A stretch of DNA of 46,971 bases from Lentisphaeria bacterium (GTDB taxonomy: Bacteria; Verrucomicrobiota; Lentisphaeria; Oligosphaerales; Oligosphaeraceae), in contig JAKSPB010000023.1 in NCBI GenBank assembly GCA_024405215.1, forward strand, positions 1-46,971, written 5' to 3'. The translations under genes were made by a program, and so were the position numbers. Position 1 is the first letter of the stretch. Each line of letters opens with the position of its first letter. The notes beneath the pieces were generated by a model that saw nothing but the letters and a program-made list of their open reading frames with translations, made no database searches and was not told where the DNA came from. Positions 7,881 to 24,571 of the stretch are shown here, in pieces.

Positions 7881-8107
7881 ATGGTTGGCTTGTGCATGCG
7901 CAAAAGACGCAAATTGCATTTCATGAAAAAGTTAGAAGTCGGGGATAAAAGGAACTGCTGGGAGGGGTATATATGACGTAAAGTGTTTTGGTGTGTCGGC
8001 GAAAATCATCCGCAAGATGATGTATATTCGTGGAAATGTGTCGGTTGACATGAGTCTCAAGGTGATTGGATGGACTCCACGAAATCAAAAAACTTCTGAA
8101 AAGAGAA

Positions 8108-11100: not shown

Positions 11101-12493
11101 CAGAGGAGGCTGTTCAGAAGACACCGCGTTGAAATGCCGCTCGGCGTTCCGGGCTGTTGACGGCGATCCGCCAGGAGGCGATGGCGGACGCGGTTTCCGC
11201 GTGATGGTCCAGCCGGCGGCGCCTTGTCACTCTGTCGTCGTCAACGGCGAAATGCAGGGAAAAATCTATGAGAACGAAGAACTTGCCATTACTCCTGAAA
11301 TTCCAGAAGGAGCGGCTTTCGCGGAATGGATTCCCGAAGGCGTCTTTTTGAATGAAAAGCAACGGCATGCCAATCCGGTCTCCTTCGCGATGCCCGCCAA
11401 CGACGTGACGCTGACTGCGGAATATGAGAAGATTCACCGTATCGCCGTCAAGGATATCCATGCATCTCGGCATCCATCCGGAAACGACCTCGTGGACATC
11501 GTCTATTCCGTTGACTGCGATCTTGTGGACGCACAGGGGAATCCAGCGGAAATCTTCATGGATTTTGCCTTGGTCAACAATGACACGAAGGAAACTTTCA
11601 AGATCGCTTTGGTTACGGGAGACGGCGCGGACGCGCCAATAACCACAGGCGGGCCGTATGCCGTTGTCTGGGACAAACGCAACGACCTTCCAGAGATTTC
11701 CGGCGATTCCTTCTCCGTCGTTGTGAGCGCCAGGGCGATGCTCCCTACGCAGCCGATCCCTGGCGATCCAGTCGTTTATCTCCCGCTATCCGATTCGACG
11801 GCGTCTGCAGCCGAAACCGGACAGCCTCTGTCTTACTACGGGAAACCTACGTCCACAATCGTGGAGGGAATCCCATGCACGTATTTCGACGGAAAATCGG
11901 CTATCTACAATTCGCAATGCAGCTTCATTCCCGCGATGGCATCCTGCACCGTCAGCGCATGGGTCAGGATGTCGTTCGACATGGCGGACACTCCCGTGTG
12001 CGAACTCGGCATCTGGGAGGGATGGAATTCTGCCTTTATAGACATCTTCACTCCCGTGATACGTCCAGGAAAAGTATGCGTTTATACGAAACACAGCGAC
12101 AACACTGACGGCGATCTCCCCTATGAAGAATGGCATCATGTTCTTGTCTGGGGATCACGCCTGTCTGCCGGCGTTTATGTGGACGGCGCCTATGCCGCAA
12201 GCAATGAAGAAGAGGAGGACAACTTCTTGGAGGCGCGAATGGAGCCGATCCGAACCAGTTTTGTCATAGGAAGCAATCGCAATCGCGAGAAGCCGTATGG
12301 TCGCGATGGATTCTGGAGGGGGCACATTGCTTCCTTCAGGGTGTACGACCGCATTCTCAAGCAAAGCGAAATCAACGCTCTTGCGTGTGAATTCAGACCT
12401 GCCGAACTCCTTGACGAAGGCATGAGCGCTCCGCTGGAACTGAAAGCCTCCACTATTCTTCCGACCGTAAACGCTGTGGAAACCCAAAGGTAA
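8108..12493 (+). CDS. Transmembrane Ser/Thr protein kinase with two FGE-sulfatase domains and a LamG-like C-terminus
   Basis: The protein has 1461 aa from ATG 8108; TTG 8066 would add 14. Residues 10-270 are a PknB-like kinase: glycine loop CGSGACGEVW, ATP lysine in VALKIF (about 40), HRDIKPEN (about 139), DMG in place of DFG, and GTIGYIPPE. One transmembrane helix lies at about 282-303, so the rest is outside the membrane. FGE-sulfatase-type modules lie at about 435-690 and 795-1033 (both with AGTF.MGSP, EAQWEYACRAG, NAWGLYDMHGNV, GFRV). Each is followed by a Gly/Trp bacterial repeat ending MPANDV.LTA.YE. A LamG/concanavalin-like domain spans about 1221-1431. The FGE modules keep one Cys (CRSA) but lack the partner Cys of true formylglycine enzymes, suggesting sensing or binding. 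The frame stops inside a third repeat, as described in the next entry. Confidence 0.85.
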   Translation: MFLQKDDKLGTYRLIAKCGSGACGEVWRAKAENGRLVALKIFPLDNGMGADEASGIQEYAKMPRQPNLIAVWDVQFVDGYCYYCMELADNMSPEADEYIPKSLDRVMANQKGMPAQEVAELAIQLLNGLQAIHDAGLVHRDIKPENVLFVNGVPKIADMGLMVQNNHFRTMGGTIGYIPPERLTGRVTGEYTNNDDLYAMGKIIYCLWSGNPAIMFPSVPDRCLESAMDAGINRVLGIACNTHHNHRFKSASAFAEALRNYVKKVPAGTRTGGKAGGGLRRKLLSWGLLLMALGIMAFAGAYMLHWPGEYDSKSEGVEQKDVENAGVPRNDAKGWTPLMKNDSGNSVTVSKTTTDGQTEVVAKTLSGSGVNEALPNGGPYAATWDFAADCPGVVPTNMAVDAKAMAGNYLVVDLETGSHRYTMSAPDLSDDTCRTTELWLRRIPAGTFMMGSPENEVGRSGDEPLHAVTLTEDYYIGVFEVTQKQYDLLCPNNMSDCKGDCRPVDNISYDIIRGTKKKEGAGWPLYGHAVDEMSFLGTLRSRTGLVFDLPTEAQWEYACRAGAATALNTGRNLMVSEHDSSMNEAGRYGGNRSDGMGGYGEHTKVGSYLPNAWGLYDMHGNVGEWCLDRYGEYDLSMRNDPVGAMTGNGRVIRGGTWNAFYVYAGNCRSAARGQDTSERPLNIWGFRVVCLPSVSLTRHKLSVNGEESQCLEGDMITINAPVKSGYLFKEWVAKGVTLSDTESQLTAFRMPANDVKLTASYEPPPALENTLYLVVNLIDGSLRCTDTAPDLSDDTCRTTELWLRRIPAGTFIMGSPEYEVGRKENEKQHKVTISNDYYIGVFETTQRQWKLVMGTDPSCRKGDCRPVETVTYDSVADAFMRKISAKTHLFFSLPSEAQWEYACRAGTATSLNSGTNLTGTGMDSELSKIARYLFNNRDGKGGYEVTTKVGMYPPNAWGLYDMHGNVAEWCGDWYAEYPDAATPATDPEGPRHGTIHVRRGGCSEDTALKCRSAFRAVDGDPPGGDGGRGFRVMVQPAAPCHSVVVNGEMQGKIYENEELAITPEIPEGAAFAEWIPEGVFLNEKQRHANPVSFAMPANDVTLTAEYEKIHRIAVKDIHASRHPSGNDLVDIVYSVDCDLVDAQGNPAEIFMDFALVNNDTKETFKIALVTGDGADAPITTGGPYAVVWDKRNDLPEISGDSFSVVVSARAMLPTQPIPGDPVVYLPLSDSTASAAETGQPLSYYGKPTSTIVEGIPCTYFDGKSAIYNSQCSFIPAMASCTVSAWVRMSFDMADTPVCELGIWEGWNSAFIDIFTPVIRPGKVCVYTKHSDNTDGDLPYEEWHHVLVWGSRLSAGVYVDGAYAASNEEEEDNFLEARMEPIRTSFVIGSNRNREKPYGRDGFWRGHIASFRVYDRILKQSEINALACEFRPAELLDEGMSAPLELKASTILPTVNAVETQR

Positions 12494-12601
12494 TACGGCA
12501 GCAAAGTTGAAACCACGGCTCCCGCCAAGGAGGGGTGCGTCTTCCTGAAATGGTTCGCGGAGGGAATTGATTTGGACAACAGAAGTGCCCCGGCTGTAAG
12601 G
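12494..12601 (+). pseudogene. In-frame remnant of the kinase C-terminal repeat beyond a stop codon
   Basis: After the TAA at 12491-12493 the same frame reads YGSKVETTAPAKEGCVFLKW and then FAEGIDLDN. Joined to the residues before the stop (VNAVETQR) it aligns without gaps to the two earlier repeats in the kinase (VNGEESQCLEGDMITINAPV, KSGYLFKEWVAKGVTLSD). The stop therefore sits where a residue should be, and the similarity fades near 12595. The gene is probably 3'-truncated by a nonsense change plus loss of the tail. Confidence 0.75.
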
Positions 12602-12620
12602 GCGCATCCTGCGGCCAAGT

Positions 12621-12717
12621 GTTCGCCGCGTAGCAGTTGTACAACAAAACATAAACAGGATGCAATTCAACAACCTTCTTAGTTCGCCGCGAAGCAGCTG
12701 TACAACAAAACATAAAC
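12621..12717. repeat. Pair of 36-bp direct repeats
   Basis: GTTCGCCGCG(T/A)AGCAG(T/C)TGTACAACAAAACATAAAC occurs at 12621-12656 and 12682-12717, differing at two bases and separated by 25 bp. The first copy contains the perfect 10-bp palindrome GTTGTACAAC. Confidence 0.9.
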
Positions 12718-12786
12718 CCTTGGCCGGTGGCACCGCCCTTACTGCACTTCGCGCAAATGGCGCGCGCTTCTGCGAATATTGCGTTT

Positions 12787-12960
12787 ATTAATTCCTGAAC
12801 CCGTGAAGTTTCCGTGCGTTCTCGCACAACTCATTGCATGACATTCAATTGTAAAAATGCTCGACGTGCGGCCGGCACGCCTTCACATTTTTGCAACATA
12901 CTTTCAAGCAAGCAGTTGCATGATAGCATCACGTTGAACTTCACGGATTCAGTAATTGAA
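12787..12960. mobile_element. MITE-like element B with inverted terminal repeats
   Basis: The left end reads CCTGAACCCGTGAAGTTT (from 12793). The right end, as reverse complement of 12934-12960, reads TTCAATTACTGAATCCGTGAAGTTCAA. The interior also folds back (TGTAAAAATG...CATTTTTGCA around a GTGCGGCCGGCAC core). There is no open frame of note. The same terminal word occurs alone at 39850-39869. Length and folding fit a non-autonomous MITE; no clear target duplication was found. Confidence 0.55.
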
Positions 12961-13734
12961 TTGACCTCCACATCCTCCTGTCAATTATGTCCTTTTTGTT
13001 CCTTTCTCTTCCCATCCATCAACTTATTAATTGAGAATTGAGAATTACGAATTGAGAATTGCAAACACTCACAGAAATGGCCAAATTTGATGCCATTTGC
13101 CGTCAAGGGATATATATGCGTAAAAGGGCATGAAATGCAGCAGCGGCCATTCTAGGCCCACTAGCGTTGATGCGAGCGATGTTCAACACTCATTTTGAGT
13201 CATGGCAGACGCCAGAAGAAACGCCAACCACTTATTTCGCATGACAAGATGCACCCCATGCAATTGCGCTCCACTGCGCTTGCCACACACGAATCCCCCG
13301 GCCCTCACAAACCAGGTCGAACCAAGGCCTCCATACGGTCTTCCATCCCGCCCCCCCAACAAACTATACCGCGATGTGAACAGAATCCTGCCTTAAAAGG
13401 TGATATTCCGTAGCAACTCCCCCCCTCTTCAAAAAAATCGCAAAAAAAAGAAAAACACAAGATAAAAAAAATATTTTTCGTCGGTATATAGAGATATGTA
13501 GATCACATGTGCAGTGAAAAAGCTTCCTTCTGTTCCTGCAAAACTGCCCGAAATTAGGTCTCGCGTCAAAAAATGCTTGCGTAGGATCCCTAGTGGCTTA
13601 AGCAAACATGATTAAGCGTGTCTGGAATTTTAATTCAGCACGTCGGAAGCGTTCCTAGGTTCTTTTCACGTTCCCAAAAATCACATGAAGGTTGCTAACT
13701 TTTAAGTTTTTTTAGATTTACCTTTTCGTGAACT
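12961..13734. other. Gene-free AT-rich stretch at the left side of the island
   Basis: No credible gene lies here. Visible are short direct words of ATTGAGAATT between 13029 and 13060, the direct repeat R1 (13068-13200), A-rich runs near 13430-13490, and a drop in GC that continues through the following genes. The short frames at 13195-13413 overlap R1 and have no coding signature. Confidence 0.7.
13068..13200 (+). repeat. Direct repeat R1 at the left edge of the AT-rich island
   Basis: This aligns without gaps to 22090-22222 at roughly four identical bases out of five. Shared blocks include CTCACAGAAATGGCC, GCCGTCAAGGGATATATAT, AAAAGGGCATGAAATGCA and AGCGGCCATTCTAGG. Each copy is partly self-complementary (AATGGCC...GGCCATT), so a MITE-like origin is also possible. 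Confidence 0.85.
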
Positions 13735-13762
13735 TTGTGCTTTCTTTTCTAAAGAATAATAC
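13735..13762 (+). promoter_or_regulatory. Possible sigma-70-type promoter for the lipoprotein cluster
   Basis: TTGTGC (13735-13740), a 16-bp gap and TAATAC (13757-13762) lie about 95 bp upstream of the first lipoprotein start. In AT-rich DNA such matches arise easily. Confidence 0.3.
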
Positions 13763-13786
13763 GCATAGAGTTTTTTTACTGAAATC

Positions 13787-13831
13787 GTTACTGTTCAAAA
13801 TCTTACATTGGGTTGGCTTCTGAACAGTAAC
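13787..13831 (+). promoter_or_regulatory. Stem-loop in the leader of the first lipoprotein gene
   Basis: GTTACTGTTCA (13787-13797) is a perfect inverted repeat of TGAACAGTAAC (13821-13831) with a 23-nt loop, ending 25 bp before the start codon. It could be an operator or an mRNA hairpin. It lacks a T-run, so it is unlikely to be a terminator. Confidence 0.5.
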
Positions 13832-13856
13832 CCAAAAATCAAAAAAGGAAAAAAAG

Positions 13857-14777
13857 ATGAAAAATGTTTTTTTTGTTTTGATGTGTGTTGCTTTGGTTCT
13901 CGCAACAAGTTGTGCTAGTACAGGCACGAAAAAGAAAGTTAATAGTGAGGATGATATTAAGAAAAATCAGCAACTCTTAAATGAATTCCGTGAAGTTGCG
14001 AAAAAACCGATTTATGTGGAAAAGTGTGGAAATTCATTGGACCCATTGTGTGATAGTTGCAACAATATTTATGATCAAGTAGCAAAGCAAAATGTGGAGG
14101 TGTTTGAAAAGTTGCGAGGCAACGAAATCTCAGAAGAACTTGCTAGAGCATTTTGGGATGGCAGCAACGAAGAAGAGATCATACAGAAAGCAAACAATCG
14201 AATCGCAGGCATGGCAGATAGCGATAAAGAAAAATATACAGCAGAAGCCATGGTGGCGACAGCAAAGGAACAATTCTGCTTTGAAAGCTATACGGCGTAC
14301 AAGCAGGAATTAAAAGAAGCACTAGATGATGCAGCTCGCAATGAAATTACGACCAAGGCTCAGGCGGATGTCGAGTATTGGGCTCGTTTGGAAGCAGGGA
14401 AAACCGTTTTTGAAAGACGTTTTGACAAAGAAACCTGTGACAAATACGTGAGTACATTTGATGCTTTGGTTATTTCAATCCAAGAAGCTTCTAAGGGAAT
14501 TGTCTCTGCCGGCCAGGATCTCATTAAAAAACTTGGTGCTGATGCAAAGACAAAAATTTCTGAAGAAAAAGCCCGTCTTCAGGCAGAGGGAGTTAGCGGA
14601 TTGGAATTGCTAAAGGCCGTGAAGGGTGTTTCAGCTTCTATTACGGAACAGACCAAAAAAGAGACAGAAAACATCAAAGACCTGTTAAACGTGGCTCAAA
14701 AACAAGCTTCATTTGAACTTAAGACTATTGCTTGGTGCAAGGAGCAAACTGAAATCATGAAATCCTATAACGAGTAG
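13857..14777 (+). CDS. Predicted lipoprotein, helical, unknown function
   Basis: The protein has 306 aa. The N-terminus is a lipoprotein signal (FFVLMCVALVLATSC, lipid-modified Cys at 19) followed by ASTGTKKK, so the mature protein is probably tethered to a membrane. The rest is predicted largely helical and strongly charged, with a few Cys residues (KCGNSLDPLCDSC at about 57-69) that could form disulfides. No known domain was recognised. The gene is AT-rich compared with the genes on either side of the island, starts after an AAGG-type ribosome site, and is followed by a strong terminator, so it may be transcribed at higher level than the genes downstream. Confidence 0.75.
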   Translation: MKNVFFVLMCVALVLATSCASTGTKKKVNSEDDIKKNQQLLNEFREVAKKPIYVEKCGNSLDPLCDSCNNIYDQVAKQNVEVFEKLRGNEISEELARAFWDGSNEEEIIQKANNRIAGMADSDKEKYTAEAMVATAKEQFCFESYTAYKQELKEALDDAARNEITTKAQADVEYWARLEAGKTVFERRFDKETCDKYVSTFDALVISIQEASKGIVSAGQDLIKKLGADAKTKISEEKARLQAEGVSGLELLKAVKGVSASITEQTKKETENIKDLLNVAQKQASFELKTIAWCKEQTEIMKSYNE

Positions 14778-14784
14778 AATAGTA

Positions 14785-14817
14785 AAATACACGCCAGCCC
14801 AAGGCTGGCGTGTATTT
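14785..14817 (+). terminator. Terminator after the first lipoprotein gene
   Basis: AAATACACGCCAGCC (14785-14799) pairs perfectly over 15 bp with GGCTGGCGTGTATTT (14803-14817) across a CAA loop. Confidence 0.85.
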
Positions 14818-14852
14818 GTTAGAATTTCATTTATTCTTCTAAAAAAATAATT

Positions 14853-15929
14853 ATGAAAGTCATCAAAACATTTTCTTTTTGTGCCATTGCAATTTTTCTT
14901 TTCTGTTCCTGCGCTTCAACAACACCTGAATTGACTCATCAGGTAGGAAACGCGTATGACACTATGGAAGGATTACTGTTTTATACTAGAGGATATCTTC
15001 AAAAACAGAAAGAGATTAGTCTGCCAAAAGGAATCAACGAGAAACATTTCACAAAGTTGCCTTTGGGGGCACAGCCAGGATTTAAACAAGTAACTCGTGG
15101 GGAAAATTCATCTGATGTTATCCCCATGAAGATGTTTGATATGTTGAAAACCGATTTTGAATCAATGCTTAGCGGAATAGGACGCTTCCCCGTTGCGCAG
15201 ATCCTGGAAGGACGCGCAGATGCCGATCTGCAGCAGATGAATCGTGTCGGAATAGCACGTGTTGCAGAGCGTGATGTCAGTGAGATGACTGAAATCAAGA
15301 CCATTCTAAATGTAAGTGTCTCAAATTCTAAGACAGCCAGTTATCAAAATGGATACAGGACTACCAATCAGCAGATGGAGTGGAACTGTGTGCCAATGGA
15401 TGCTGTCAGCCAGGCTCCGGTCAGTTGGTGGCCGCCGACAAAAATCACATCCAATGAACAAATAGTCCAGAAGGTCTCTCCGACTGGGCAAGTGGTAGGG
15501 GGGCTTCGCACCGATAATGATGTAGAGCGTGAAGCTTTCTGGAGGAATTTGAGCAGAAAGGCTCAGCTTAAATTCATTCAATGGGTTTACGAGAACTTCC
15601 CGGCAGGAGGCGTGATTACTGATATGGATCTGGAAAGTAATCTGGCCACCATTGCAGCAAGCCGCTCTACTGGATTGCAAAATAATATGGAGGTTGTTGT
15701 TTACGCGCGAGAAAAGGGACGTAGCATTAGAGTTCCTTTGTTTAGTGCAACCGCCACAGCAGCCAATGAGGGGGATTCTGATTTGAAGATTTGGCGGTAT
15801 TCACAAGCTCCGAGAGCCCAAAAAATAATCAACCAACTTCGCACGAATTCGCTTGGTGAGATGGAGGAAACATACGAATTCTGGGGAGTTGTTTGGGGAT
15901 TGGCTGAACCGCCAGATTTCATTAATTGA
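14853..15929 (+). CDS. Predicted lipoprotein with CsgG-like and FlgT_C-like features
   Basis: The protein has 358 aa. A lipoprotein signal (FCAIAIFLFCSC) is followed by AST. Residues about 95-165 (MFDMLKTDFESMLSGIGRFP, then ARVAERDVSEMTEIKTILNV) resemble the core of the CsgG/LpoB-type fold, in which a small alpha-beta domain forms oligomeric rings. Residues about 250-300 (GGVITDMDLESNLATIAASR, then STGLQNNMEVVVYAREKG) resemble the small beta-barrel seen at the C-terminus of FlgT and of some CsgG-like proteins. Both readings are inferred from sequence pattern and need a profile search. The stop codon overlaps the next start (TGATG), indicating translational coupling with the following lipoprotein. 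Confidence 0.7.
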   Translation: MKVIKTFSFCAIAIFLFCSCASTTPELTHQVGNAYDTMEGLLFYTRGYLQKQKEISLPKGINEKHFTKLPLGAQPGFKQVTRGENSSDVIPMKMFDMLKTDFESMLSGIGRFPVAQILEGRADADLQQMNRVGIARVAERDVSEMTEIKTILNVSVSNSKTASYQNGYRTTNQQMEWNCVPMDAVSQAPVSWWPPTKITSNEQIVQKVSPTGQVVGGLRTDNDVEREAFWRNLSRKAQLKFIQWVYENFPAGGVITDMDLESNLATIAASRSTGLQNNMEVVVYAREKGRSIRVPLFSATATAANEGDSDLKIWRYSQAPRAQKIINQLRTNSLGEMEETYEFWGVVWGLAEPPDFIN

Positions 15930-17482
15930 TGCTGAACCGAAGTGAAACTATGCGATATATCGTTCTCTCATTGGTAATGACGGTGCTTCTGGTCCTGTTT
16001 TCTTCTTGTAGAACCAGTGACTCATACACTGTCAATCAAACCACAATTGTTAATGATGCAACCGTTGCTGTTGTCCAGGAACAGCAGGGAGACATTTTTG
16101 ATGTTAATAAAATTGTCGGCAAAATGAAGGAAAAAAACAGGCCTTTCCTCTGTGGACTTTCATCTGATGTCGGCGTGTGGGTCGTGTGTCGCGCTGATGT
16201 TCATTCCGATGGCGATATGCCTCAGGAGCAGATGCTGTCACTTGCTGAAATGCGGGCTAAACGCGACATCGCCTCCTGGATGAATACAGCAGTTTCTTCT
16301 GAGGCTAGTTTGGAACGGTCACAAACATTACAGGATGATGGGACCGTCAGTGTTAGTCAAGCTTATCACTCTTTGACGAAGACAAGTTCAGAGGCCCTTC
16401 TCAAAGGTGTGACCCTTCACTCTTTTGCGTCAGGGGAGGAAGGTATCAATGCCTTCTTCTATGCAACTGGATATAATGCTGATATGACCAGTGCTTTGGA
16501 AGCGCAACTCCGCGAAGCACCACCTGGTGTGGTCCGGGCGGTGGGGTTTGGTGTCATCGCCGACAGGGAAATCGCGTCAGCGAAGCGTCAGGCTGTGCAG
16601 GCCGCGCTGCGTAATGCAGTTGAGCAGGTTATGGGAGCGACTGTAGTGGGGCAAAGCCAGCTTATGGACAATGAAAAAGCAAAATCCAAACTGCTTTCCC
16701 AGACTGTTGGCAATGTCAAGGAATACAGAATTGTCAAAGAGGGAGAGCAAGGCGTTAGTTATCAAGTGATACTCAACGCTCGAGTGGATGAAAATGATCT
16801 TCTTGACAATTATGCCGCATTTGTGCGCTCTATGGGGAATCCCGGCTTTTACATTAGTTGCGCAGATGAAGACCTGGACACCACGTTGAATGATTTTTTT
16901 GCTGGTCTAGGCTTCTATGTCATTGAGGATGAAAACGAGGCACAATTTGAGGTGGAGGCCGAATGCAAGTACATTGAAGTGCTAGATAACTACTATGGGG
17001 AAGGAATTCAGATTGAAACTCATCTGACACTTTCTGACAGAAAAAGCGGTCAGCGCCTCATTTCTATGAGGAATCGTCCTGTATTGACTTCAACATATAG
17101 TGGGGCGTTCCATCAGAGACGTCAGGTCGCGGCTGGAAAGGCATTCAAGAGTATGCGCGAGGAATTGCATGAAAAACTGAATCAGGTGGTGATGGACTGG
17201 GTTCTTAATGGACGTGAGGTGAAGGTGGTTTTTAAAAGCGTTCCTGACGGGGTGGAAAAACTCATTCCGGAAATAATCAATGGTGTTCCTTGTGCCACGT
17301 ACCATACTTTGGAACGGAATGATTCAGATTTGACAGTTTTTTGTTCATACGTTGGGCCGACTGCTGATTTGGACTATTTCCTTAGTGATCGTCTGCATAA
17401 AGATTTGCCTCCTGAAATCTCATCTCCGAAAACGGAGCGTGTTGAACTTAACCTTCTGGAACTTGTTTTCCAGATTAACTAA
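15929..17482 (+). CDS. Predicted lipoprotein with LPP20/FlgT_N-like domain
   Basis: The protein has 517 aa from ATG 15929 (TGATG overlap with the upstream gene); ATG 15950 would give a more typical signal, MRYIVLSLVMTVLLVLFSSC. The cysteine at the end of this segment is a likely lipidation site. Residues about 190-300 read AVGFGVIADREIASAKRQAV, QAALRNAVEQVMGATVVGQS and later YRIVKEGEQGVSYQVILNARV, a classic FlgT N-terminal/LPP20-type pattern (AR..AI..A...AVEQ..G..V). A similar Ala-rich helix lies earlier (LSLAEMRAKRDIASWMN). The C-terminal 200 aa have no recognised match. In other bacteria such domains form outer-membrane-associated rings. Confidence 0.7.
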   Translation: MLNRSETMRYIVLSLVMTVLLVLFSSCRTSDSYTVNQTTIVNDATVAVVQEQQGDIFDVNKIVGKMKEKNRPFLCGLSSDVGVWVVCRADVHSDGDMPQEQMLSLAEMRAKRDIASWMNTAVSSEASLERSQTLQDDGTVSVSQAYHSLTKTSSEALLKGVTLHSFASGEEGINAFFYATGYNADMTSALEAQLREAPPGVVRAVGFGVIADREIASAKRQAVQAALRNAVEQVMGATVVGQSQLMDNEKAKSKLLSQTVGNVKEYRIVKEGEQGVSYQVILNARVDENDLLDNYAAFVRSMGNPGFYISCADEDLDTTLNDFFAGLGFYVIEDENEAQFEVEAECKYIEVLDNYYGEGIQIETHLTLSDRKSGQRLISMRNRPVLTSTYSGAFHQRRQVAAGKAFKSMREELHEKLNQVVMDWVLNGREVKVVFKSVPDGVEKLIPEIINGVPCATYHTLERNDSDLTVFCSYVGPTADLDYFLSDRLHKDLPPEISSPKTERVELNLLELVFQIN

Positions 17483-17506
17483 CCCACAACCCAAAAAAAC
17501 GTAAAA

Positions 17507-18856
17507 ATGAAAAAAACATTTGCATTTCTGTTCTCATTTGTTTTTTTACTTGTTAGCATTACCTTTGCGCAAGAAGAGGAACAGCCAAGCGTTGCTGATA
17601 CCAACCCAAGTGGTGGCGAACAGGTAGTTGCCGAAGTGGCGCAGTATTCTGCTAATGCTAAGACTCAACTTGAGGCAATTGCAAAAAAAGCAAAATTAAA
17701 GAAAGCCTCTCGAAAAGGAAAAGCAACTTACTCAATCCAAATTGCTTCAGTAGGTTGTAAACCAGACAGTAAAGACTATGCAACCAATCGACAGTCGGCG
17801 TTTGACCGAGCTTTTTTAGCAGCAAAGAGTGAAATTGCCCGTAATCTAGCTGCGCAGGTTAAGACTTCTGCAGAACTAGCGATGCAGACGGGAAAACTTG
17901 CAGAAGGACAGAGTGCGGCAAATGACAAGGTACAGAATATGGTGAATGCCGCAGTTTTTGAAATGCTTGTTGAACAAGGAGTTGATCTAGAGGATGAGGC
18001 CGCAGTTATGGCCGCATTGCCCAAAGTGCTTAATTCTACGGAATTTAAGCAAATGACAGAAACAGCAGCTGTTGCGTACATGATTGGAGTTCAAGCATTT
18101 GCTGTTGTTGCTGATAATAATAGCATTGGTGTACTTGCCACATATTCAGATGTTACACGTGACATGGCAGTGGCTATGTTCTCAGGAGAAAAGGTTAAGT
18201 TCAATGGCCCTCGGGTTGAGGATTTGAACGATATGCTGGATGAAATTGATGCCAATGTTCTTGCTAATACATTTGGTCTACGCGCTTTTATTGAAGATGA
18301 TGGAGAAGAGGAACAATTTGCTATGGTTTCTTTTGTTCAGGTTCATCAGGAATCGGATTCAGCTTCCTCTGAAGCAATTGCGAATGCAAAGGCAAGAACA
18401 ATTGCCGAAGGGCAGTATCGCGAATTCGCTGGGCAAAATGTAGCTGTCGTTGCCGCTCTAGAGCAATCTCAGAACATTACGGAACTTGCAGATAATTTGG
18501 GAGAATTAAGTGCGGTTGACCAGAACTTCAGCCAGAAATGTCAGGCACGCGGCGATAAACTTCAAATTTCAGGTATTAATCCCTTGGATTCCAAAACGGT
18601 TGTGTTGCCTTCAGGACATAAGGTTCTCTGCTCCAGTTTTGTATGGACGCCAGAATCTTCGCAATATGCTATGGTTAGTGTAGAAAAGAATCGCCAGGCT
18701 GAAAAGATTGTGAATCAGGGACCAAAGATTAAGGAAGCAATTCCTGTTGAAGCGCCTGCGAAAAAAACTACTGCTCCTGCAAAACCAGTTCATCGTCCAA
18801 ATATTTATCAAAATAAAGGGACAAGTGGAAGTGGACTTGGAGGCGGAGTGTTTTAG
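17507..18856 (+). CDS. Exported protein, DUF6844-like
   Basis: The protein has 449 aa. The Sec signal (MKKTFAFLFSFVFLLVSITFA, cleavage before QEEE) has no lipobox. Residues about 70-110 (ATYSIQIASVG, then RQSAFDRAFLAAKSEIARNL) again show an Ala-rich helix of the LPP20/FlgT kind. The general layout recalls DUF6844 proteins, an uncharacterised exported family. The C-terminus is low-complexity and ends in SGSGLGGGVF, perhaps a flexible tail. It starts 24 bp after the upstream lipoprotein gene and is surely in the same operon. The family name is a tentative recollection. Confidence 0.65.
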   Translation: MKKTFAFLFSFVFLLVSITFAQEEEQPSVADTNPSGGEQVVAEVAQYSANAKTQLEAIAKKAKLKKASRKGKATYSIQIASVGCKPDSKDYATNRQSAFDRAFLAAKSEIARNLAAQVKTSAELAMQTGKLAEGQSAANDKVQNMVNAAVFEMLVEQGVDLEDEAAVMAALPKVLNSTEFKQMTETAAVAYMIGVQAFAVVADNNSIGVLATYSDVTRDMAVAMFSGEKVKFNGPRVEDLNDMLDEIDANVLANTFGLRAFIEDDGEEEQFAMVSFVQVHQESDSASSEAIANAKARTIAEGQYREFAGQNVAVVAALEQSQNITELADNLGELSAVDQNFSQKCQARGDKLQISGINPLDSKTVVLPSGHKVLCSSFVWTPESSQYAMVSVEKNRQAEKIVNQGPKIKEAIPVEAPAKKTTAPAKPVHRPNIYQNKGTSGSGLGGGVF

Positions 18857-18873
18857 TAAGTGAAAGTTAATAG

Positions 18874-18915
18874 ACGAGCACGTTAAATATTTTTGATTGT
18901 ATCTAACGTGCTCGT
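18874..18915 (+). terminator. Hairpin between the DUF6844-like gene and the next gene
   Basis: ACGAGCACGTTA (18874-18885) pairs perfectly with TAACGTGCTCGT (18904-18915) around an 18-nt AT-rich loop. The T-run after it is short, so it may only partly stop transcription. Confidence 0.6.
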
Positions 18916-18935
18916 TTGGAGCAATAATAAATCAC

Positions 18936-20150
18936 ATGAATAGATCTATGAGTGGTTTTTTTTATATTTACATCTTTTTCTTTATGCTTTCAAGTGTTTT
19001 GTTTGCGGATAGCAAAATGCCAGACGTGGTTTTTCAAGCTAATGTGGATAAAATATTGTGCTCTCCGGTGATGGAATTGGAGGGATATGTCTTTTTATCT
19101 GGGCGGGTTAAACCTGCATCTGACTCATTGCAATCAAAGTTAATTGCTCAATCTATGGCGCGTTCGAAAGCAGAAAGTAATGGCTGGTTATTGCTTGCAA
19201 AGAAAGTCTCATATGAGAAAACCATTTTAGAGGGACGCACAGTATTACAAGATGTCTTCTTCAATGCTTGGCGCGCACTTGGACAGAAAGAAAATTATAC
19301 ATTACGCAATTCAGTATTAGTTTTTTCTAAAATGAAGGATGGGATTTTCTGTTGTGTAATTGCTGTTAAACCGGAAGACATCATATTTCAGGATACAGAA
19401 GCTATAACTTTTAATAAAATGCGCTCTGAAATTCTTTCGGACACTGCTAAACGTAATGAGTTGATTGTGTATGAGATTATGGAAGAGGCAGAGATTGACA
19501 CACACATTGCAGAAATTGCTGCTGGTTTAGAAAAAAAAGTGAATTGTAATTTTGCTCGAATGTTTTTGAATCTTGAACCTAAAACTCCACTGGAGAAGGG
19601 AATAGAATTTGCTCGCAAGAAACTTTCTTCTTTGGGAGAAAATGCAAAATTAGATGATTTATTGCAATTAACTTCTAATTTGCCATATGACCGAGAACTC
19701 TGTCAGCGTTTGGCAAGTGCTTTCCGAAAACGTGAGATGTTACGGTGGGCGTCTTTGATGGAGTATCTAGTAAATGATTATGGAAAACTTCAGAAAGAAT
19801 GGGAAAAAAGCAAGAAAGAACTTCAAGGCGATCAGAATTTTTCAACAAAAGATGTTGATCTTGAAAAAAAAGCTATTCCTATGGGAAAAACAAATCTTTC
19901 CAGTGGATGCGACTCTGCTAAAAATTCTGCAGAAAATAGTGATAATTTAGCATCCAAAGGTTGTTGTCCAGAATCTTTTCCATATGTTCAACTACGGAAA
20001 ACGAGTACACTAGATATGTCAAACAATAGACAAGAATACGTTAAAAAGATTCTCAACTTTGTTCCAGAATTGAAACAAAGTACGACCCAAAGTCCTACTT
20101 CTTTGGAAGAAAAAACTAAAGATCAATCAATAGACTTGAAAAAACAGTAA
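18936..20150 (+). CDS. Exported protein of the envelope cluster, unknown function
   Basis: The protein has 404 aa from ATG 18936; an in-frame TTG lies 13 codons upstream inside the hairpin and is unlikely. A hydrophobic signal-like segment (FFYIYIFFFMLSSVLFA) is followed by a 170-aa domain with SKLIAQSMARSKAESNGWLL, which again has the repeated Ala/Ser-rich helix seen in the two genes before it. The C-terminal 100 aa are Lys/Ser/Asn-rich and probably disordered. No catalytic motif is visible. Position and shared helix suggest it works with the upstream lipoproteins. Confidence 0.6.
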   Translation: MNRSMSGFFYIYIFFFMLSSVLFADSKMPDVVFQANVDKILCSPVMELEGYVFLSGRVKPASDSLQSKLIAQSMARSKAESNGWLLLAKKVSYEKTILEGRTVLQDVFFNAWRALGQKENYTLRNSVLVFSKMKDGIFCCVIAVKPEDIIFQDTEAITFNKMRSEILSDTAKRNELIVYEIMEEAEIDTHIAEIAAGLEKKVNCNFARMFLNLEPKTPLEKGIEFARKKLSSLGENAKLDDLLQLTSNLPYDRELCQRLASAFRKREMLRWASLMEYLVNDYGKLQKEWEKSKKELQGDQNFSTKDVDLEKKAIPMGKTNLSSGCDSAKNSAENSDNLASKGCCPESFPYVQLRKTSTLDMSNNRQEYVKKILNFVPELKQSTTQSPTSLEEKTKDQSIDLKKQ

Positions 20151-20182
20151 AATTTTTTACAATTTGAAAGGAATAAGTTAAC

Positions 20183-20563
20183 ATGAATACGGTTTCAATT
20201 TTGATTTCCATTCTCGTTGTGGTTGTTTTAGTTGCCTCTGTGTTTCATTCTATGTGGCATTTATCAAAAAAACTTGTCATTCCAATGCAGATTTGCCTTT
20301 TCATTCTGCTTCTGGTTCTTTTGTTTAAGACATTTGCTACAAAAGAAAATTTCAATCGCCTGAATGAACAAGTGGAAAAATCTGGTATTGTTGACATTGA
20401 GGTGAAAACTGTAAAGGATTCAGTAAAAGCAGTTGATGAGATGATAAAGAATGATGCTGAACCTGTGGTTAGACAGTCTCAAAAACAAGATACTGTTTCC
20501 CCTAAAAAAGAAGAAAAGAATGAGAAGAAAGAAATAACTGATTTTACACAATTTATGAAATAA
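20183..20563 (+). CDS. Small two-helix membrane protein
   Basis: The protein has 126 aa. Two transmembrane segments lie at about 4-22 (SILISILVVVVLVASVF) and 32-49 (LVIPMQICLFILLLVLLF), with a basic short loop between them. A charged, Lys/Glu-rich tail of about 75 aa follows, ending DFTQFMK. A GAAAGGA ribosome site precedes the ATG, 32 bp after the previous gene. It could anchor or regulate the envelope cluster; no family was recognised. Confidence 0.65.
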   Translation: MNTVSILISILVVVVLVASVFHSMWHLSKKLVIPMQICLFILLLVLLFKTFATKENFNRLNEQVEKSGIVDIEVKTVKDSVKAVDEMIKNDAEPVVRQSQKQDTVSPKKEEKNEKKEITDFTQFMK

Positions 20564-20657
20564 AAAAGAACAAAATTTTTTCAAAGAAATAGACAATTTT
20601 ACGTGAAATGTGGCGATCTTCTAAAACAAAGACCTTCCATTAATGCCATGAGCAGTT

Positions 20658-20677
20658 CCCAAAACACATGTTTTGGG
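20658..20677. promoter_or_regulatory. Short perfect inverted repeat upstream of the next gene
   Basis: CCCAAAAC (20658-20665) is complementary to GTTTTGGG (20670-20677) with a 4-nt loop, about 60 bp before the preferred start of the following gene. It could be an operator or a hairpin. Confidence 0.35.
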
Positions 20678-20736
20678 GGATGAGATTTTAACTGTTTATG
20701 AAACAAATGATCAAGCACATTAAAAGGATGAAGAAC

Positions 20737-21345
20737 ATGATTAGTAATGAACACTCAAAGAGTAGTTGTCCATTTTTGCAAGGGAATCATCTCAATGTTA
20801 ATAACACCTTGTCAAGAAATTTGCATGATATGATTCAACAATACAATGCATTCTATAAGCAATGTCTAGATGATGTCCTTGACATGTTTCAAGACTTGTC
20901 TGTAGATGATACAATAAAATATGCCGCATTATCTCGGTGCAAAATATGCGATGAAAAGTATCCTCATCAATGGCGTCTTTCCAATGAAACATTGCAAAAA
21001 TTTTATTGTAGTGTTATTACAAAAAAAGAAAAAATAATTGAATGTAAGGATTTTGAACAAATTTACGACATTATCAATAGGGCGAAAGTTCGTGGGATTG
21101 GTAATTTGACAGTATATGATACAAGTTTACGGATTGGGGCCAAGCTCAATTTGTTTCCTGAAAAAAAAGTTTATGCGTTTAATGGTGCATCAATTGCTGG
21201 TCAAAATGGTAGACACATTTTTGATAGAAATGAATTTAAGGAAGAATTTGCGAATATGTCTGCATATCATATTGAAGATTTCCTTTGTGTATATAAGGTT
21301 CAAAGGGAAAACTATGACATCGATGTTTTGAGGCCTATCCCTTGA
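20737..21345 (+). CDS. Conserved hypothetical protein with a GIG-LTVYD helix-hairpin-like motif
   Basis: The protein has 202 aa from ATG 20737, chosen because AAGGA (20724-20728) sits 8 bp upstream; ATG 20698 would add 13 residues. The N-terminal half has paired Cys (CKICDEKYPH). The C-terminal half reads IYDIINRAKVRGIGNLTVYD and then TSLRIGAKLNLFPEKKVYAF, a pattern recalled from uncharacterised gut-bacterial proteins and reminiscent of helix-hairpin-helix DNA-binding segments. No enzyme residues could be assigned. It is AT-rich like its neighbours and is not clearly part of the envelope operon. Confidence 0.6.
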   Translation: MISNEHSKSSCPFLQGNHLNVNNTLSRNLHDMIQQYNAFYKQCLDDVLDMFQDLSVDDTIKYAALSRCKICDEKYPHQWRLSNETLQKFYCSVITKKEKIIECKDFEQIYDIINRAKVRGIGNLTVYDTSLRIGAKLNLFPEKKVYAFNGASIAGQNGRHIFDRNEFKEEFANMSAYHIEDFLCVYKVQRENYDIDVLRPIP

Positions 21346-21362
21346 TAAGGAGATTAACATAA

Positions 21363-21455
21363 ATGAACAAGCAAGCATTCTGTTACTTCGACGCACTCGG
21401 GAGAGTCAAGGCAATTTGTATTGGTCCCCTTTTGCAAGGGAGGCCAATACGTTAA
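21363..21455 (+). CDS. 30-aa ORF with a strong ribosome site; possible 5' fragment of an interrupted gene
   Basis: ATG 21363 lies 10 bp after AAGGAG (21347-21352), which is one of the best ribosome sites in the island. The peptide starts MNKQAFCYFDALGRVKAI and then enters DNA that looks like the end of an insertion sequence, with a hairpin (TTGG..CCCTT/AAGGG..CCAA, 21420-21448), and stops at 21455. It is either a small peptide or the broken front of the membrane-protein gene that resumes at 21587. Confidence 0.4.
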   Translation: MNKQAFCYFDALGRVKAICIGPLLQGRPIR

Positions 21456-21482
21456 CCGGCCAAAAATCTCGAAAAAAAATTT

Positions 21483-21581
21483 TCAGGCCATCAAACAAGG
21501 GCCTTCTCTTCTTGTTGCATGGTAGAACCAGTTCTCGTATTCGATTGGACTTTCATAGCCCAGGGGCGAATGCAGGAACTC
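21483..21581 (-). mobile_element. Relic of an IS3-family transposase (C-terminal 32 codons)
   Basis: Read on the minus strand from 21581 to the TGA at 21483-21485, the frame gives HSPLGYESPIEYENWFYHAT, then RREGPCLMA. HS.LGY.SP.EYE is the hallmark C-terminal motif of IS3/IS150-type OrfB transposases. An in-frame stop lies immediately upstream, so only the tail survives. It is flanked by pieces of the island's own genes. Confidence 0.75.
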
Positions 21582-21586
21582 CTATA

Positions 21587-22033
21587 ATGGAACCAGTTTT
21601 AATCGGGCTCGTCATATTGGGAAAGGGGTTATGTAAATGTCATGCAATTCCCTTTCTCGGGCGCATGTTTACTTTTATTGTTTCATTGTCTATTGCAGTT
21701 TTCCTCATAGGTATTCTTTTGGTTGGGATTGGTTTGCCGCTGGTTTTTCTCAGTGCACTTTTTGTGTCTGGAGAGGCCTCAGAACCCAATTTTGATTGTA
21801 AAATGAAACTGATAGAATTTTACTGTACACATTTCAAATGGCTCGCTAATATGTGCAACTGCCTTTATACGCTGTATTATACAGAGGGAGCAGAAACATG
21901 TTCACCACTGCTTGGAATATTCAAGGCTTTTATGCTAAGTATTCCAATGATGGCGGCAAATTGTGTGCCTTTGTTATACTCTATTCGTATTGTGGCTTGG
22001 GCCGCTATAGTCTGGTCAGATGATTATCAATGA
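21587..22033 (+). CDS. Small membrane protein, possibly the 3' part of an IS-disrupted gene
   Basis: The protein has 148 aa from ATG 21587. An open frame continues upstream to 21416 but there it overlaps the transposase relic on the other strand and is unlikely to be genuine. A long hydrophobic region (MFTFIVSLSIAVFLIGILLV, then GIGLPLVFLSALFV) makes one or two transmembrane helices, with another near the C-terminus (YSIRIVAWAAIVW). Several Cys residues lie in between. No family was recognised. The start lies only a few bases from the relic boundary, so the original N-terminus may be the 30-aa ORF at 21363. Confidence 0.45.
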   Translation: MEPVLIGLVILGKGLCKCHAIPFLGRMFTFIVSLSIAVFLIGILLVGIGLPLVFLSALFVSGEASEPNFDCKMKLIEFYCTHFKWLANMCNCLYTLYYTEGAETCSPLLGIFKAFMLSIPMMAANCVPLLYSIRIVAWAAIVWSDDYQ

Positions 22034-22089
22034 TTACAACCGAAATTGACATATTGGAAATTGAAAACAGTCGACTGGCAAGGACAACG

Positions 22090-22222
22090 CTCACAGAAAT
22101 GGCCTATTTTGATGTGTTTTGCCGTCAAGGGATATATATACGCAAAAGGGCATGAAATGCAACAGCGGCCATTCTAGGCTCCTTAGCGTCGATCATAGTG
22201 ATTTTCAGCGGTCATTTTGGAC
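22090..22222 (+). repeat. Direct repeat R2 at the right edge of the AT-rich island
   Basis: This is the partner of 13068-13200 in the same orientation, aligned without gaps. After it the composition returns to the GC-rich background within about 50 bp. Confidence 0.85.
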
Positions 22223-22250
22223 TCCTGCGGGCGCGATTTTGCAATTGACA

Positions 22251-22374
22251 GGAGGGACAGAAGGGACAGAAGGGACCAAAGGGACTCAAGGGAACAAAGG
22301 GACAGAAGGGACCAGAGGGACTCAAGGGAACAAAGGGACAGAAGGGACCAGAGGGATCAAAGGGACCAGAGGGA
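22251..22374 (+). repeat. 36-bp tandem repeat built of 9-bp GGGACnnAA-type words
   Basis: Units start at 22263, 22299 and 22335, each 36 bp long and made of four related 9-bp words (GGGACAGAA, GGGACCAAA, GGGACTCAA, GGAACAAAG). In one frame this reads as Gly-Thr-X triplets like collagen, but no gene start supports translation. Confidence 0.9.
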
Positions 22375-22987
22375 CATTCTACCTCTAGCGTGATCTACGG
22401 TCTTCAATTGGTCTGCTAGCCCAACCATGCCATAAAAACATATCGCGATATAGGCGGAATCTTTCCCTAAAAACGCTATGTTCCCTAAGAAGATCGTTTG
22501 CCGACGAAGATCTTCATGAGTTGTTTCTTCCTGGCAGGCCGCCTGCCGGCGGATGGAACACAAAACACACAAAAGGCACATAACACACAAAAGGCTTTCT
22601 TTCCTTGAAAAACATTCTTTGTGTTTCACTGCCGTCCCATAATTTCATGAAACGCATGCTTTCCAAATACAGTTGAGCACGGAGACTTCGTCTTTCCAAG
22701 ATGCCCTTTTTTTGTGCAGGGAATTGATTGCGCAGATTTTCGGCGGATCCTTGCCTGGGCGCCCAGGCAGGGCGCCCAGGCCTGCCCCTAGGGGCAGAAG
22801 TGGATTAACCGTATGCAACGGCCCGGGAGGGGGCGTTGCATACGGCGGAGCCTCGTCAGGTCCCCCCGCCCTGGAAGTCCTATGGCATGCTGGTGGAACT
22901 GTAGTTTTTCTCTCAGGCAAAGCCAACGTCAGGCATTAGATTATCCAATAAAACGGAACGTTTAGAGAGTCGGGAGGGATTTCCGCC
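22375..22987. other. Gene-free stretch between the island and the second AAA-ATPase gene
   Basis: No credible gene is visible. It contains repeated ACACAAAAGGC words near 22567-22596, a GAAGATC/GATCTTC hairpin near 22490-22517, and a cluster of palindromes at 22753-22845. From about 22920 it is homologous to the DNA upstream of the first AAA-ATPase copy (shared GGCAAAGCCAACGTCAGGCA, then TTAGATTA). Confidence 0.75.
22753..22845. repeat. Cluster of three perfect palindromes
   Basis: GCCTGGGCGCCCAGGC (22753-22768) and CTGCCCCTAGGGGCAG (22782-22797) are perfect 16-bp palindromes. CCGTATGCAACG (22809-22820) pairs with CGTTGCATACGG (22834-22845) over 12 bp with a G-rich 13-nt loop. No T-run follows. 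Confidence 0.9.
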
Positions 22988-24571
22988 ATGCCGAAGGATC
23001 TTACTTGCAGCACATATACATTCGAGAAACTGCGCGAAGGGAATTTCCTGTACGTGGACAAGACGGAGTACATCTGGAAGCTCCTCCAGCCGTCAAGCGC
23101 CTTGTACTTCCTCGCCCGTCCTCGCCGCTTCGGCAAGTCCCTGACCCTCTCCACGCTGAAGGCCGTCTTCCAGGGGAAGAAGGAGCTCTTCAAGGGCCTG
23201 GCCCTCTACGACAAGCCCTACGACTGGAAGGTGCATCCCGTCATCCACGTCTCCATGAGCGGCTGGCTGCTGACGCCCTATGAAAACTATGAGGAGAGCC
23301 TGCGGAACATCGTCCTGGAGCAGGCGAAGGAGAACGGCGTCGTCCTGGAGAAGGAGGCCGCGCCCACCATGTTCCGGAAGCTTCTCGCCGCGCTGACCGA
23401 AGGCGGCGCGCAGGCGGTGGTGCTCATCGACGAATACGACAAGCCGCTGATGGACAACGTGGGCGCGCCCGACATCCAGCGCTACCTCTCCCTGCTGAAA
23501 AGCTTCTATTCCGTCCTCAAGGACCGGGAGCGGGACATCCGCCTCGCCTTCGTCACGGGCGTCACCAAGGTCTGCCACGTCTCCCTCTTCTCCGACCTGA
23601 ACAACCTCCGCGACATCTCCATGGACGCCGCGTTCGCCACCATGCTCGGCTACACACAGCATGAGTTCGAGGGGAACTTCGCCGAGTGGATCGCCGAGAC
23701 GGAGCCTCAACAGACGCTTCCCCACGAGCGGTTCCTTGGCAGGATCAAGACCTGGTACGACGGCTTCCGCTTCCATCCCAAGGCGGAGAGCGTCTACAAT
23801 CCCGTCTCCCTGGCCAGTTTCTTCCAGAACGGCGGCGAGTTCAGGAACTACTGGTTTTCCACGGGAACGCCCACCATGCTCTTCCGCATGATGCGGCAGC
23901 AGTCATTCAACCTGCCGTTGACCTTGAAGGAGTCGGTCCCCATGGACTTCTTCGAGGCCTTCGAGATCGACCGCATCGACGCCAAGACGCTGATGTACCA
24001 GACGGGCTATTTGACCATCGTCTCCGCCACGCAGCCTCCTGAAGAAATGGACGATGAATGGTGCCCTGTCTATCGTTTGGATTTCCCCAACTACGAAGTC
24101 CGCCATTCCTTCAACAGCCACCTGCTGAACTACTACGCCAATCTGACTTTCGGCGACTCCTTCCAGATTCTCGAGCGCCTGGCCAGGGCGGTCCGCGGCG
24201 GCGACGTGGCGGGCTTCGTGGAGGAGCTGAAGCGCCTCTTCGCGGGCATCCCCTACGACATGCGCGGCAAGGCGGAGGCGGACTACCAGACCATCGTCTA
24301 CGTGGTCTTCATGATGCTGAACAGCTACGTGTCGGGAGAGCACCGCACAAGCAGCGGCCGCATCGACCTGGTGCTGACCGCCGCCGAGTGGACGTACGTC
24401 GTCGAGTTCAAGATCAACAAGTCCGCCAGGGAGGCCCTGAAGCAGATCCAGAACAGGGACTACGCGCGGCAGTTCCTGGGGCGCGGCCAGCGCGTGGTCG
24501 CCGTCGGCATCAACTTCGACACCCGCAAGCGCCAGATCTCCGGCTGGCTCCACGAGGAAGTCGCAGAGTAG
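22988..24571 (+). CDS. AAA-ATPase-like / PD-(D/E)XK nuclease-superfamily protein, copy 2
   Basis: The protein has 527 aa, the same length and start context (GGGAGGGATTTCCGCCATG) as copy 1. The Walker A (RPRRFGKS), Walker B (VVLIDEYDKPL) and GRIDLVL...EFK nuclease-fold motifs are all intact. Differences from copy 1 are confined to the first 129 bp (for example EKLREGN for EDLRKGN, PSSALYFLA for PYKALYFLS) and the last few codons (EVAE for EVVE). Homology starts about 70 bp before the ATG, so the shared unit includes the leader. Both copies point the same way and together bracket the sigma-kinase pair and the AT-rich island. Confidence 0.85.
   Translation: MPKDLTCSTYTFEKLREGNFLYVDKTEYIWKLLQPSSALYFLARPRRFGKSLTLSTLKAVFQGKKELFKGLALYDKPYDWKVHPVIHVSMSGWLLTPYENYEESLRNIVLEQAKENGVVLEKEAAPTMFRKLLAALTEGGAQAVVLIDEYDKPLMDNVGAPDIQRYLSLLKSFYSVLKDRERDIRLAFVTGVTKVCHVSLFSDLNNLRDISMDAAFATMLGYTQHEFEGNFAEWIAETEPQQTLPHERFLGRIKTWYDGFRFHPKAESVYNPVSLASFFQNGGEFRNYWFSTGTPTMLFRMMRQQSFNLPLTLKESVPMDFFEAFEIDRIDAKTLMYQTGYLTIVSATQPPEEMDDEWCPVYRLDFPNYEVRHSFNSHLLNYYANLTFGDSFQILERLARAVRGGDVAGFVEELKRLFAGIPYDMRGKAEADYQTIVYVVFMMLNSYVSGEHRTSSGRIDLVLTAAEWTYVVEFKINKSAREALKQIQNRDYARQFLGRGQRVVAVGINFDTRKRQISGWLHEEVAE

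Follow-up and report, generated by a model that had tools for sequence, protein, structure and literature searches.

What do six consecutive genes at positions 13857–20563 of a 46,971-nucleotide stretch of DNA from a Lentisphaeria bacterium (contig JAKSPB010000023.1; the whole stretch is referred to as the window) contribute to the cell envelope? The original prediction described three probable lipoproteins, two exported proteins and a two-helix membrane protein, and our analysis bore out this inventory: the six open reading frames (ORFs), all on the plus strand, fill the interval, and the lipoboxes (genes 1, 2 and 3), the signal peptides (genes 4 and 5) and the two helices (gene 6) are all present. 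We give an even chance to the reading that the gene set encodes an oligomeric scaffold, anchored in the outer membrane, that is akin to the flagellar H-ring and basal-disc proteins but serves no flagellum. Its proposed main parts are about five tandem SHS2 domains of the LPP20/FlgP/FlgT_N type in genes 3–5 and CsgG/FlgT-type domains in genes 2 and 3. The ring or disc scaffold is supported by synteny, a FlgP match that spans an insert, FlgT/CsgG-like structure models, the SHS2 repeats of a DUF6844 protein, sister operons and the lack of FlgI in 17 genomes.

The order of the genes is conserved. Two Lentisphaerae metagenome-assembled genomes (MAGs; G103, SIG97, and G116, SIG96) have all six positions filled in the same order, the counterparts (loci L011/L012) being 23–52% identical for genes 2–6 (33–35% for gene 6) and 22–23% for gene 1. 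Gene 1 counterparts also occur in L031 (phmmer 1.3e-6) and L085/L086. Using profiles of the families of the six genes (F1 to F6), we found F2-F3-F4 in order and on one strand in 18 loci across several Verrucomicrobiota families, with F5 after F4 in 13 of them; the E-values for these loci are inflated for sequences used in building the profiles, which leaves gene order unaffected. The 18 include the window, Victivallis vadensis DSM 14823, a Victivallis MAG and the source genome's other, diverged copy (L003, 7660–12848, contig C18 of G000), which carries a further exported ORF and is closest to UBA3761; in L087, an extra ORF sits between F3 and F4. Because the six-gene order recurs in two genomes at 22–52% identity and F2-F3-F4 in 18 loci, the observation goes beyond chance. 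The original prediction had suggested a search for the same gene order in other genomes of the Planctomycetes–Verrucomicrobia–Chlamydiae group, where it thus proved to be widespread. Both outcomes that might have overturned that prediction, a lack of CsgG/FlgT/LPP20 similarity by profile and a gene set conserved nowhere else, were examined, and neither occurred.

Related arrangements were seen as well. In two Lentisphaerae genomes (L015, 10917–14827; L016, 4263–7409), the two ORFs that come after F1-F2-F3 resemble, by eye, a kinase and a sigma factor, and in one genome (L090, 1715–10832) five consecutive FlgT/LPP20-like ORFs surround an F2 relative.

The window copy lies on a low-GC island (GC 0.33–0.46 and third-position GC, GC3, 0.29–0.45; surrounding genes 0.55–0.61 and 0.63–0.90, respectively). 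The island is edged on the left (13064–13197) and right (22086–22219) by 134-bp direct repeats on the plus strand, which are 84% identical and of which the genome holds just these two copies. In the gene 3 tree, the window copy clusters with full support with the two Lentisphaerae MAGs, which belong to another family, and searches of two congeners and about 20 sampled family members gave no genes 2–4. Taken together, the low GC content, the edge repeats, the grouping with another family and the absence from congeners favour horizontal acquisition as one unit, which is the probable origin of the island; no integrase was seen. Such a unit transfer could account for the window copy even if the genes encode separate envelope proteins with common folds that travel together and form no joint assembly. 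This explanation appears improbable, as the order is kept in 18 deeply diverged loci over many families and the source genome itself holds another, diverged copy. Two more low-GC ORFs inside the repeats (20698–21345, 215 amino acids; 21416–22033, 205 amino acids) have no family match, and a tandem array of 9-bp units (AGGGACNNA-like) at 22235–22385 adjoins the right direct repeat.

Single-protein searches of Pfam, NCBIfam and the PDB with the cluster proteins (P0001 to P0006 for genes 1 to 6) gave almost no matches, and the only two relevant single-sequence Pfam matches, FlgT_N in gene 3 (20.7 of 28.8 bits) and DUF6844 in gene 4 (22.7 of 27 bits), stayed below the cut-offs. Family profiles built from relatives were needed, and it is these that make the similarities secure.

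Gene 3 (15950–17482, plus strand) encodes a lipoprotein. Its start is probably ATG 15950 (510 amino acids, lipobox LFSSC), not the mechanical ORF start at 15926; in the 518-residue numbering of the longer version, two SHS2/LPP20 domains (∼58–195 and ∼200–296) are followed by an alpha/beta domain (300–430) and a C-terminal alpha/beta domain (430–515). The F3 profile matched Campylobacter FlgP (9hmf_C) at 2e-7, rising to 3.4e-8 with more relatives, and other FlgP chains more weakly. The match falls on SHS2 domain 2 and is ungapped through the helix-insert-strand stretch, part of which (238–257) has a predicted local distance difference test score (pLDDT) below 50 in the gene 3 model. In the FlgP family, ring formation is reported to go along with extra residues inserted after the SHS2 helix and before the second strand (PMC12222027). 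The tandem SHS2 arrangement is also that reported for FlgQ (PMC12222027), like FlgP a protein of the Campylobacter basal disc (9HMF); gene 3 differs from both in its extra domains, its gene neighbourhood and the lack of a flagellum. LPP20 matched 8 of 13 gene 3 relatives (best 4.5e-7) and FlgT_N 7 of 13 (3.6e-5), a significant SHS2 profile match for the family, with the window protein alone below the Pfam cut-off. The FlgT_N/LPP20-like segment predicted for gene 3 is thereby supported.

The structure model of gene 3 (mean pLDDT 68.6; predicted template-modelling score, pTM, 0.40) likewise shows two SHS2-type units and then two more alpha/beta domains. With this model, Foldseek returned FlgT (3w1e, 6.8e-7) as the top match, and also 4QVR (7e-4) and Helicobacter Lpp20 (5OK8), which shares the SHS2 fold and the lipid anchor but consists of a single domain. 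Compared with a FlgT-like middle-domain profile, gene 3 domain 3 scored 20.2, near the decoys (maximum 16.8).

Gene 2 (14853–15929, plus strand; 358 amino acids) encodes a lipoprotein with a CsgG/FlgT-middle-like core and a FlgT_C-like beta domain, and its Cys20 is unchanged in all rows of a 19-row family alignment. The AlphaFold model (pLDDT 75.7, pTM 0.71) matched FlgT (8z5n_0, 4.9e-10; 3w1e, 5.5e-10), CsgG (4uv2, 1e-4) and PelC (4e-3). The curated CsgG cut-off (PF03783) was not reached (two of 12 relatives had a match, the best at E 0.09), and the curated LpoB models gave no match, so that membership of either family was rejected. Comparison of the C-terminal part with a FlgT-like C-terminal domain profile gave 13.2 (decoy maximum 14.0); because this stayed near the decoys, the FlgT_C call is mainly structure-based. 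Of the earlier description of gene 2 as CsgG/LpoB-like with a FlgT_C-like end, the CsgG and FlgT_C parts thus hold by predicted structure (FlgT 5e-10, CsgG 1e-4) and weakly by sequence; LpoB membership does not. Vibrio FlgT (3W1E; LPHT ring 8Z5N) is matched by the models of both gene 2 (∼5e-10) and gene 3 (7e-7). It is, however, a flagellar motor protein that carries its N, middle and C domains on a single chain, whereas no cluster protein combines FlgT_N, FlgT_M and FlgT_C and the parts are divided between two lipoproteins.

Oligomers of the CsgG family are secretion channels. Gene 2, with its predicted CsgG-like core and lipid anchor and its matches to CsgG and PelC, could accordingly provide a pore or gasket in an accessory or export apparatus for a surface polymer or amyloid, with the other proteins guiding the substrate. 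Yet the protein fits no curated CsgG, LpoB or PelC model, its relatives remain below the CsgG cut-off, the source genome has no CsgG over that cut-off, and none of the recurrent genes in the conserved neighbourhood is recognisable as one for a substrate, a chaperone or polysaccharide. We therefore consider an export function to be a poor candidate.

Genes 4 and 5 extend the SHS2 theme. Gene 4 (17507–18856, plus strand) encodes an exported protein with apparently two tandem SHS2/LPP20-like domains (residues ∼72–224 and 273–392) that, by family profile, probably belongs to DUF6844 (PF20891), which matches five of nine gene 4 relatives (best 3e-12). The F4 profile in turn retrieves canonical DUF6844 members at 1e-20 to 2e-30 and matches the solved homologue FTT_1539c of Francisella (PDB 4QVR) at 1.8e-20; P0004 alone had no PDB match. 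In profile comparisons, the two halves of gene 4 matched one another (7e-10) as well as domain 1 of gene 3 (1.9e-6 and 2.8e-7), with scores of 43–65 as against ∼10 ± 2 for shuffled or reversed decoys. As the halves match each other and gene 3 domain 1, and the gene 3 model picks out 4QVR, the DUF6844 region most probably belongs to a tandem SHS2 protein. In keeping with a place in the envelope, FTT_1539c is listed among the proteins recognised by sera from mice that had received an outer membrane vesicle vaccine (PMC10963506) and among reactive antigens (PMC4207810). Gene 5 (18936–20150, plus strand) probably starts at ATG 18936 (404 amino acids, signal peptide), not at the mechanical ORF start 18897. 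It encodes an exported protein with one SHS2-like domain (∼54–150 in the 417-residue numbering), weaker than those of genes 3 and 4, followed by a helical C-terminal region; the F5 profile scored 26.4 against gene 3 domain 1 (decoys 10.8 ± 1.8). The original prediction that Ala-rich helices like those of gene 3 recur in the next two genes therefore stands for gene 4 and is probable for gene 5.

DUF6844 proteins are also encoded in a sister operon of the type tetratricopeptide-repeat (TPR) lipoprotein, YcfL, LpoB, DUF6844 and FlgT-like protein, sometimes incomplete or reordered. It occurs in four genomes from the class, in other members of the phylum and on one Azospirillum plasmid; tblastn of plasmids gave nothing with gene 3 and one record with a DUF6844 relative. 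The TPR, YcfL, LpoB and full FlgT-like proteins stand in place of F1, F2, F3 and F5. The FlgT-like protein has CsgG, LpoB and FlgT_M matches, a conserved C-terminal domain and an N-terminal SHS2 domain (8e-14 against gene 3 domain 2), and fits the FlgT architecture better than genes 2 and 3 do. DUF6844, SHS2 and CsgG/LpoB-type parts are present in both operon types, an argument for a shared envelope theme.

That theme might instead be envelope growth: CsgG/LpoB-type lipoproteins would act as switches of peptidoglycan synthases by reaching across the wall, with the SHS2 proteins tuning or localising this activity and no large ring being formed. The sister operons carry a true LpoB (TIGR02722, 145 bits; cut-off 110.55) together with YcfL/DUF1425, and the CsgG part of the F2 profile scored 25.9 against the LpoB profile (decoys 11.4 ± 1.5). 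Gene 2 itself, however, matches no LpoB model and is FlgT/CsgG-like in the structure search, and the cluster has no penicillin-binding protein gene. On balance, a regulatory role in peptidoglycan synthesis is unlikely, if worth keeping in mind.

The original prediction had noted an absence of flagellar and curli genes, which for FlgI and CsgG extends beyond the locus. None was found among the cluster genes and their near neighbours, FlgI is absent from the source genome (96.8% complete) and from 16 further carriers, and no CsgG over the cut-off occurs in the source genome; the flagellar genome context of FlgT is thus missing here. The source genome apparently encodes a type III secretion system, for which the cluster could supply an accessory outer-membrane structure: a YscJ_FliF match (2.1e-25) lies on another contig (C40 of G000, L097), and neighbouring ORFs resemble other type III secretion parts by eye. 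These genes are unlinked to the cluster, and the window copy was undetected in congeners, which makes such a role highly improbable.

In the ring or disc scaffold that we favour, the three lipoproteins would reach the outer membrane. In E. coli, an Asp after the lipoprotein cysteine decides the membrane destination; the lipoboxes of genes 1, 2 and 3 (TSC, CSC and SSC) have no Asp directly after the cysteine, and the proteins are therefore predicted to be outer-membrane bound. The gene 2 product (FlgT middle and C-terminal-like) and the gene 3 product (FlgP/FlgQ-like tandem plus alpha/beta domains) would form an oligomeric ring or disc. Further SHS2 layers on the periplasmic side would come from the DUF6844 protein and the gene 5 product, which have signal peptides without a lipobox cysteine, and the gene 6 product would possibly tie the complex to the inner membrane. 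The assembly might sit on the inner face of the outer membrane and serve it as a bushing or scaffold, like the flagellar H-ring or basal disc but free of a flagellum.

Several points weigh against such a scaffold. The structure models cover single chains, and we infer the oligomeric state; the gene 3 model is of low confidence (pTM 0.40, alignment of 11 sequences); and the lipobox is often missing in gene 3 relatives outside its clade. SHS2 and CsgG-like folds are also found in non-ring proteins (Lpp20, LptE and others among the matches), and the cluster encodes neither a beta-barrel nor a secreted substrate. Strong stem-loops that follow gene 1 and gene 4 leave co-transcription uncertain. The gene content, its kept order, the domain relationships and the lack of FlgI are established, and the six products may form one ring or assembly.

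The gene set appears to be undescribed: we found no mention of DUF6844 and no description of this operon in the literature searched, where most subscription journals are not covered. More tentatively, the loci may represent ring or disc machines of the outer membrane that lack a flagellum and form a class not yet described, widespread in Verrucomicrobiota and with a sister form elsewhere, made from FlgP/FlgT/DUF6844 SHS2 repeats and CsgG-like lipoproteins. If so, flagellar H-rings and basal discs may have been recruited from envelope scaffolds of an older family, and confirmation would bear on the origin of flagellar accessory rings. DUF6844 gains a likely fold and an operon context, and FlgT/FlgP-type ring domains are seen to stay together in bacteria with no detected flagellar P-ring gene. 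Victivallis vadensis DSM 14823 is a cultured carrier in which the assembly can be sought.

Gene 1 (13857–14777, plus strand) encodes a helical lipoprotein of 306 amino acids (lipobox TSC-19) without a known domain, and its family had no match among solved structures. Gene 6 (20183–20563, plus strand) encodes two hydrophobic helices, lysines in a short loop and a charged tail, and is probably an inner-membrane protein. Genes 2 and 3 almost abut or overlap. The two long stem-loops, both on the plus strand, were located by eye and by folding: that between genes 1 and 2 (14787–14817; perfect 13-bp stem, −23.3 kcal/mol, z −8.0) may be an attenuator or partial terminator, and the other lies between genes 4 and 5 (18869–18915; −25.8 kcal/mol, z −6.5). 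Promoter and terminator scans gave no signal above shuffled sequence, Rfam had no match within 12000–23000, and PADLOC had no match. Upstream of the island, a protein of 1475 amino acids (8066–12493) begins, as judged by eye, with a Ser/Thr kinase-like part, after which come two formylglycine-enzyme-like repeats.

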